Below the pieces are notes generated by a model. That model ran no database searches. It saw only the letters and a list, made by a program, of their open reading frames with translations, and was not told the origin of the DNA. Positions 16,801 through 19,127 of a DNA stretch of 46,169 nt are shown piece after piece. A program made the position numbers and the translations under genes. The number at the start of each line of letters is the position of its first letter. Position 1 is the first letter of the stretch. Source of the DNA: Syntrophomonadaceae bacterium (GTDB lineage: Bacteria > Bacillota > Dethiobacteria > SKNC01); NCBI GenBank assembly GCA_003560915.1, contig PWJM01000181.1, positions 1 through 46,169 on the forward strand, read 5' to 3'.

Positions 16801-17220
16801 GTGAAAGATTTAGAACAGCTTACCGACGAACTGCTCTGTTTTTTTAACGGATTTGCTTCCTGGGAAAGCTCTGTAATACGTTCCAGCGATTTAACGGTTT
16901 CCGAGGCCCATGCCATAGAAATACTGGGACAGTACGGCAAAATGAACATGAAACAGCTGTCTGAAAAATTAGGAGTTACAACCGGTACCACCACCGTTAC
17001 CGTGGACCGCCTGGAAAACCGAGGATATGCCCGCCGGGAATCCATCAAGGAGGACCGGAGAGTAAATTTAATTAGCTTAACGGTAAAAGGAGAGAAAGCT
17101 TTTGAAGAGCATCACCGTTATCACTTATGTCTTACAGAGCAGATGGTCTCTACCCTTTCCGCCGAAGAAAGCTCCTTGCTGCTGAACATTTTAAAAAAAA
17201 TAAATAAAGAGGTATTTTAA
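16801..17220 (+). CDS. MarR-family transcriptional regulator
   Basis: A 139-residue winged-helix protein: MKQLSEKLGVTTGTTTVTVDRLENRGYARRES is the helix-turn-helix and turn (about residues 43-75), followed by the family's wing EDRRVNLISLTVKG. GTG start with AAAGGAG 9 nt upstream. It is divergent from the metal/peptide importer and co-directional with the defective P-type ATPase. Ligand unknown; genomic context suggests metal or efflux-related control. TTACTAA words before it may be its binding sites. Confidence 0.9.
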   Translation: MKDLEQLTDELLCFFNGFASWESSVIRSSDLTVSEAHAIEILGQYGKMNMKQLSEKLGVTTGTTTVTVDRLENRGYARRESIKEDRRVNLISLTVKGEKAFEEHHRYHLCLTEQMVSTLSAEESSLLLNILKKINKEVF

Positions 17221-17379: not shown

Positions 17380-18471
17380 ATGATTGGAAGATATGCCGGC
17401 GCAGTAAAATACAAAGAACTGCTGCAGAAAAAAGAGTTTTTTATGGTGTCCATGGGAATTCTATTGGTTACCCTTTCTTTCTTAACAGGAAACAAAAATG
17501 TTTCGTTCCCCCTGTCTGACCTGCTGGCCTTGGGTGCTGTTCTTCTTTTAGGCGGGCCTATCATTGTTGAAGCTGTGCGGGGACTCATCCAAAAGGAGGT
17601 AAATGTGGTTGAACTGGTCAGCCTGGCCATCATAGCTTCGGTGATAGCTGGAGAATACCAGGCCGCGGCTATCGTGGCTACGATTATGGTTCTTGGCTCC
17701 CTGGTGGAACAGTTCACCTCCCAAAAAGCCCGTTCGGCCATACTTTCCCTGATGGAACTAAAGCCGGAAAAAGCCAGCCTGCTCCGCCTCGGAACAAAAC
17801 ATTCAGAAAAAGCCCTTTCGGCAAAAGAAAATGGTTCCCTTCTGGGATTCATTCATATTCAGGAAGAAATTCGCCCCGGGGTTCATGAAGTAATTGGCTC
17901 GCTGGAGAAAACAGGGATTTCAGAAATACACCTGCTGTCCGGTGATCGCCAGCAGGCTGTCCAAAAGGTGGCGGAGAAAACCGGAATCCCCCATTGTTCC
18001 GGTGAAATGCTGCCGGAGGATAAACTACGTTTTCTAAAGAAGATTCAAAAGAAAAATAATAGCGTGGCCATGGTGGGAGATGGAGTAAATGACGCCCCTT
18101 CCCTGGTTACCGCCAATGTGGGAATTGCCATGGGAGTTATGGGCACCGACACGGCCATTGAATCTGCAGACATTGCCCTTATGGCCGATGACCTGGAAAG
18201 GCTGACTTTTTTATTCCGCCTGGGAAAACAAACGGTAAAAACGATTCACTCCAACATCTTTTTTGCCCTGTTCTTCAATCTGGCAGCCTTGATTGCTTCA
18301 GGGAGCGGTATGTTAACCCCGGTAACCGGCGCCATTACCCACAATATTGGTTCCATCTTTGTGGTGGTAAATTCAGCACTGCTTCTTAAGTTTTCGGGAG
18401 AAAAACCCGAATTAACCGGTCAAAAAATCCACGAACAAATTTCCGGGCAAATCTCCGCCGACAAATATTAA
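17380..18471 (+). pseudogene. Internally deleted heavy-metal P-type ATPase
   Basis: A 363-residue open frame with both ends of a P1B ATPase but no middle. Present: four N-terminal helices (to about residue 115), the start of the actuator domain (SLMELKPEKASLLR), then abruptly the end of the catalytic domain (HLLSGDRQQAVQKVAEKTGI, MVGDGVNDAPSL) and the last two helices (THNIGSIFVVVNSALLL). Missing: the TGES loop, the CPx metal-site helix and the DKTGT phosphorylation site. Family members are usually 600-750 residues, so roughly 270 were lost in frame. It cannot pump by the normal mechanism. GAAAGGAAG precedes ATG 17380. A recent deletion or a repurposed short protein are both possible; a terminator follows. 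Confidence 0.8.
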
Positions 18472-18544
18472 TTGGCCTGTCCCTGTTCGAAGGCAAGCGC
18501 TAATCCCTTTCGTGGAGCCTTCCTCATTCCATTCAAAAATGTAA

Positions 18545-18569
18545 AACCGGAAGGTTAACCCTTCCGGTT
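18545..18569 (+). terminator. Terminator after the P-type ATPase remnant
   Basis: Perfect 10-bp stem AACCGGAAGG / CCTTCCGGTT with a 5-nt loop, followed by CAATAACAATTTTTT on the plus strand. Confidence 0.8.
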
Positions 18570-18710
18570 CAATAACAATTTTTTCAAGCTCCTGAACTAA
18601 TCCCTGGAAAGAAAGGACAGTTTGCTGTGACTCAAGGCATGATGATCAAATATTAGACTGGCGCCTACCATTTGGGGTGCACTTCAAGTTGTTTTTTTTC
18701 CACATATCCG

Positions 18711-19127
18711 CTAACGGGAACATTTGTCACACAGGCCTCGAATAAATACCTCCTGTTCCTCAACAGTGTACCCGGGCCTGATTTCCGAAAGCTGGGGAAT
18801 CTTCATTTCCTTAATGCATTCTACTTTGCCGCATGAATTACACACAAAATGTGGGTGGTGTTCCTCACCATCTTTGGCATCCGTCAGGGCAAATCGCCAG
18901 ATCCGATCCCCGGTTTCTACCCGGTGAACAATGCCTGCTTCCAAAAAAGCATGCAGAGATCGGTAAACACTGACAAAATTAAAATCAATATCCGATAATT
19001 GATTGGAAATTTCCTGTTGTGACAGCGGTTGTTTCGTCTTGAGAAGAAGCTCAATCAAAGCAATTCTTCCTGGGGTACATTTAAACCCATTTTTTTGTAA
19101 TATGTCCCGGGCAGTCTCGCAGTTCAT
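18711..19127 (-). CDS. Fur-family metal-responsive regulator
   Basis: A 138-residue Fur/Zur-type repressor. The N-terminal winged helix contains CTPGRIALIELL and VSVYRSLHAFLEAGIVHRV; the dimer domain has the metal-site string EEHHPHFVCNSCGKVECI, and the C-terminus ends in CDKC, giving the two CxxC pairs that hold structural zinc. AAAGGTGA lies before ATG 19127. It follows the cobalt-transporter genes (74 nt gap). Whether it senses zinc, iron or another metal cannot be told from sequence; the two CxxC pairs and HHPHF are compatible with Zur or Fur. Confidence 0.88.
   Translation of the reverse strand: MNCETARDILQKNGFKCTPGRIALIELLLKTKQPLSQQEISNQLSDIDFNFVSVYRSLHAFLEAGIVHRVETGDRIWRFALTDAKDGEEHHPHFVCNSCGKVECIKEMKIPQLSEIRPGYTVEEQEVFIRGLCDKCSR

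Follow-up and report, generated by a model that had tools for sequence, protein, structure and literature searches.

The window that we analyzed is a stretch of 46,169 nucleotides from a Syntrophomonadaceae bacterium. At positions 17380 to 18471 it contains an open reading frame (ORF) with parts of a P1B-type heavy-metal ATPase, and regulatory genes lie on both sides of it. We compared this locus with that of G002, a complete genome from the same genus (one contig of 3,558,951 bases). The features are:

16801 to 17220, plus strand: intact MarR-family regulator, directly upstream of the ORF and 92% identical to its counterpart in G002
17380 to 18471, plus strand: probable remnant of a P1B heavy-metal ATPase gene (363 codons, open frame)
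17380 to 17787, plus strand: N-terminal piece with four hydrophobic helices, corresponding to residues 1-136 in G002 (81% identity)
17788 to 17802, plus strand: junction of the deletion (5 codons that do not align, versus 285 in G002, for a net loss of 840 bp)
17803 to 18453, plus strand: C-terminal piece with the second half of the P domain (LSGDR, GDGVNDAP) and the last two helices, corresponding to residues 422-638 in G002 (74% identity)
18609 to 18680, minus strand: what is left (a tail of about 24 codons) of a second ABC substrate-binding protein gene, which is intact in G002 (L061:8851-10398)
18711 to 19127, minus strand: intact Fur-family regulator, 88% identical to its counterpart in G002, at the right border of the eroded stretch

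The window and G002 share the order of ABC transporter genes, binding protein, MarR, ATPase, and Fur. The placement of the MarR gene directly upstream of the P1B ATPase gene is also kept in several genomes of the class, and the two are likely to form a regulator-pump operon.

The frame of 363 codons is open from 17380 to 18471. Four hydrophobic stretches remain near its N terminus and two near its C terminus, together with LSGDR and the GDGxND hinge of the P domain (as GDGVNDAP). TGES, CPC, and DKTGT are all absent from it. The phosphorylation motif DKTGT, in the P domain, is present in G002 and in the other intact orthologues, and the orthologues also have the metal-binding CPx motif (CPC) in the helix that precedes the P domain. 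Altogether, the actuator (A) domain with its TGES motif and the DKTGT strand are gone from the ORF, as are two membrane helices (one of them with CPC) and the greater part of the ATP-binding domain. An earlier note, made from the DNA alone, had described the gene in much these terms (both membrane ends and GDGVNDAP kept in an intact reading frame, and TGES, the CPx helix, and DKTGT gone), and both the motifs in the ORF and the alignment to G002 confirm this.

The profile for the actuator domain with its TGE motif (PF00122) matches the G002 protein and not the window's protein. Both halves of the ORF match models of heavy-metal ATPases, with scores under the cut-off for every heavy-metal (IB) ATPase model. 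For TIGR01525, which has a cut-off of 346 bits, the window's protein scores 220.9 bits and the G002 protein scores 563.7 bits. The G002 protein passes both of the P1B-type heavy-metal ATPase models (TIGR01525 and TIGR01512) and aligns over its full length with ZntA (structure 4UMV). The window's pieces are 74-81% identical to G002. Unlike P1B-type ATPases, the window's copy has neither an A domain nor the CPC helix or DKTGT, and it is missing most of its N domain. Because it lacks a phosphorylatable aspartate, an actuator domain, and the metal-binding CPC helix, the 363-residue product would be unable to pump; judging from these motifs, no P-type pump cycle would be possible for it.

The G002 orthologue is intact (641 amino acids, L007:241-2166) and has the same neighbourhood as the ORF. 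Residues 1-136 of the window's protein align with residues 1-136 of this protein, and residues from 142 onward align with residues from 422 onward. The E values for the two pieces (about 1e-59 and 1e-95) imply that the similarity is not due to chance. Relative to G002, the window is short by 840 bp, or 280 codons, in frame, with the two pieces joined at 17787-17803. Comparison with relatives, which the earlier note had suggested as a check, is what reveals this loss. For a pseudogene formed by deletion, an intact orthologue is expected at the same locus in a close relative, and G002 has one, with conserved synteny. The start of the window's ORF is intact, as is the ribosome site whose retention had been noted earlier (AGAAAGGAAGTGT, identical in G002).

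The ATPase gene is not the only one to be affected. In G002, the ATPase and Fur genes are separated by the second binding-protein gene, which is on the minus strand. Alignment of its tail in the window (18609-18680) to G002 shows indels of 16 nt and 4 nt, and about 2 kb are missing from the window. This second deletion lies within 300 bp of the ATPase remnant (140-300 bp downstream). Thus, the ATPase locus is eroding, with the neighbouring binding-protein gene deleted as well.

Among other genomes, G002 and seven more from the class have an intact orthologue of about 640 amino acids at the corresponding position. Three more distant relatives have ATPase copies that are broken differently: the copy in G047 is missing its N terminus and has a frameshift, the copy in G095 includes residues 139-369 only (L098:4715-5407), and just the C terminus is present in G034. 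In G001, which is the second genome of the same genus, there was no close copy of the ATPase among the matches listed. As the query for recurrence against 399 genomes of the phylum, we used the 165 residues that span the junction. No short gene with the same junction was among the matches listed from about 500 genomes (these 399, the relatives, and the class). A broad scan of genome contigs yielded distant homologues only, and a search of the literature found nothing specific on P-type ATPases shortened in such a way. As a side observation, the left edge of the G095 fragment is within a few codons of the edge of the window's deletion.

The deletion could instead be an artefact of the assembly or of a mixture of strains, so that the gene is full-length in the organism, or in most of its population, and 840 bp were dropped during assembly. 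This is a draft genome (183 contigs, with an estimated contamination of 3.27%) and the short gene was observed just once. However, the junction is well inside its 46-kb contig, and the sequences that flank it each occur once in the assembly. In the G002 gene, a repeat search turned up no direct repeat connecting the two ends for an assembler to collapse, and the missing segment is in no other contig of the assembly, so a collapse is disfavoured. (The other ATPases that were found in this genome are paralogues, with 31-36% identity.) Two further observations argue against an artefact: a second deletion with a decayed tail adjoins the first, and the remnant is changing relatively fast compared with its neighbours, as described below. 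We consider an artefact to be unlikely, and the deletion is very probably real. An imperfect direct repeat that flanks the junction (17723-17738 and 17807-17822, 15 of 16 nt) was considered as the cause of the deletion and rejected, as both copies remain.

To compare rates of change between the two branches, we used aligned sites, with G092 as the outgroup. The amino-acid branch length for the remnant is 0.165 in the window versus 0.078 in G002 (95% interval of the difference, 0.007 to 0.167). For four intact neighbours, the same comparison gives the reverse (0.045 in the window versus 0.071 in G002). Polarised changes (window:G002) number 29:20 in the remnant versus 50:73 in five neighbours (Fisher p 0.04), or 21:9 versus 28:51 if one outgroup is used (p 0.002). 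The faster change of the remnant on the window's branch includes sites that are conserved in at least six of seven outgroups. The asymmetry is modest and varies with the choice of outgroup: if G011 is used, the N-terminal piece shows none. Constraint is relaxed, to this modest and outgroup-dependent extent, on the branch that carries the deletion.

The earlier note had also proposed looking for purifying selection. Pairwise dN/dS values relative to G002 are well below 1 (0.098 for the N-terminal piece and 0.170 for the C-terminal piece, versus 0.053-0.096 for the neighbours), but these values do not show selection on the short form, because most of the distance predates the deletion. In simulations of neutral drift, the probability of having no stop codon fell from 0.38 at 0.04 substitutions per site to 0.09 at 0.1. 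As the absence of a stop is expected only after a short period of neutral drift, the open frame fits a recent event, and the deletion is probably recent.

Overall, we think it likely that the ORF is what remains of a MarR-linked gene for a P1B metal-exporting ATPase, with an in-frame loss of 280 codons, in a locus that is eroding. The exporter gene would have lost these codons in the window's lineage; its product, if made, would be unable to pump metal; and the neighbouring second binding-protein gene would have been deleted too as the locus eroded. The ATPase frame would still be open because the length of the deletion happens to be divisible by three (a one-in-three chance) and because the event is probably recent. 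Given the lost motifs, the 363-residue product would most likely be non-functional. Against this, the ORF retains its reading frame, its start, and its ribosome site, and both pieces have dN/dS well below 1.

A rival reading is that the shortened protein has been retained in a different role, for example as a membrane subunit with a regulatory or accessory function. In its favour, the frame is open, the ribosome site is retained, the upstream MarR gene is intact, and the pieces have dN/dS of 0.10 and 0.17. However, the short form did not recur among the matches listed from those roughly 500 genomes, the remnant changes relatively faster (including at those conserved sites), the adjoining gene was deleted as well, and orthologues are broken elsewhere. 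Also, the half of the P domain that remains, without its nucleophile strand, is modelled poorly by AlphaFold: the mean pLDDT is about 44 in the short protein (residues 141-230), whereas this half (residues 421-510) reaches about 73 when the protein is intact. The same alignment of seven sequences was used for both proteins. This drop is weak evidence that half of a P domain does not fold alone, because that alignment is shallow and neither model is good overall. We view retention for another role as quite improbable; the earlier note had offered it alongside a very recent deletion, and of the two, only the recent deletion gained support. Even less probable is a more specific proposal, that a single deletion turned a P1B pump into a stable six-helix membrane protein of 363 residues without ATPase activity, which senses metal or partners with the other P1B pumps under the MarR regulator.

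The preferred reading, a remnant left by a recent deletion, places the ORF among in-frame deletion pseudogenes of eroding loci. It resembles these in having a single internal deletion between retained ends, a neighbour reduced to a tail, and orthologues that are broken differently. It differs in that it has no stop or frameshift yet and, from the sequence by itself, reads as a gene. Most likely it is not a new kind of protein but a dying gene caught before its frame broke. The remnant has little importance in itself. It does illustrate cleanly how a deletion that preserves the frame can leave behind an ORF that would be annotated as a protein, and that comparison with relatives reveals to be a remnant.

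Two other short ATPase frames in this genome, on C88 and C150, were considered as further truncations and rejected: they are paralogues (34-37% identity) that are cut by the ends of contigs. Finally, the terminator that was said to remain is a weaker detail. The hairpin at 18544-18570 is no better than shuffled sequence (2 terminator-like sites were found versus 2.2 expected), and it was scanned as a minus-strand terminator, just past the stop of the neighbouring gene's remnant.
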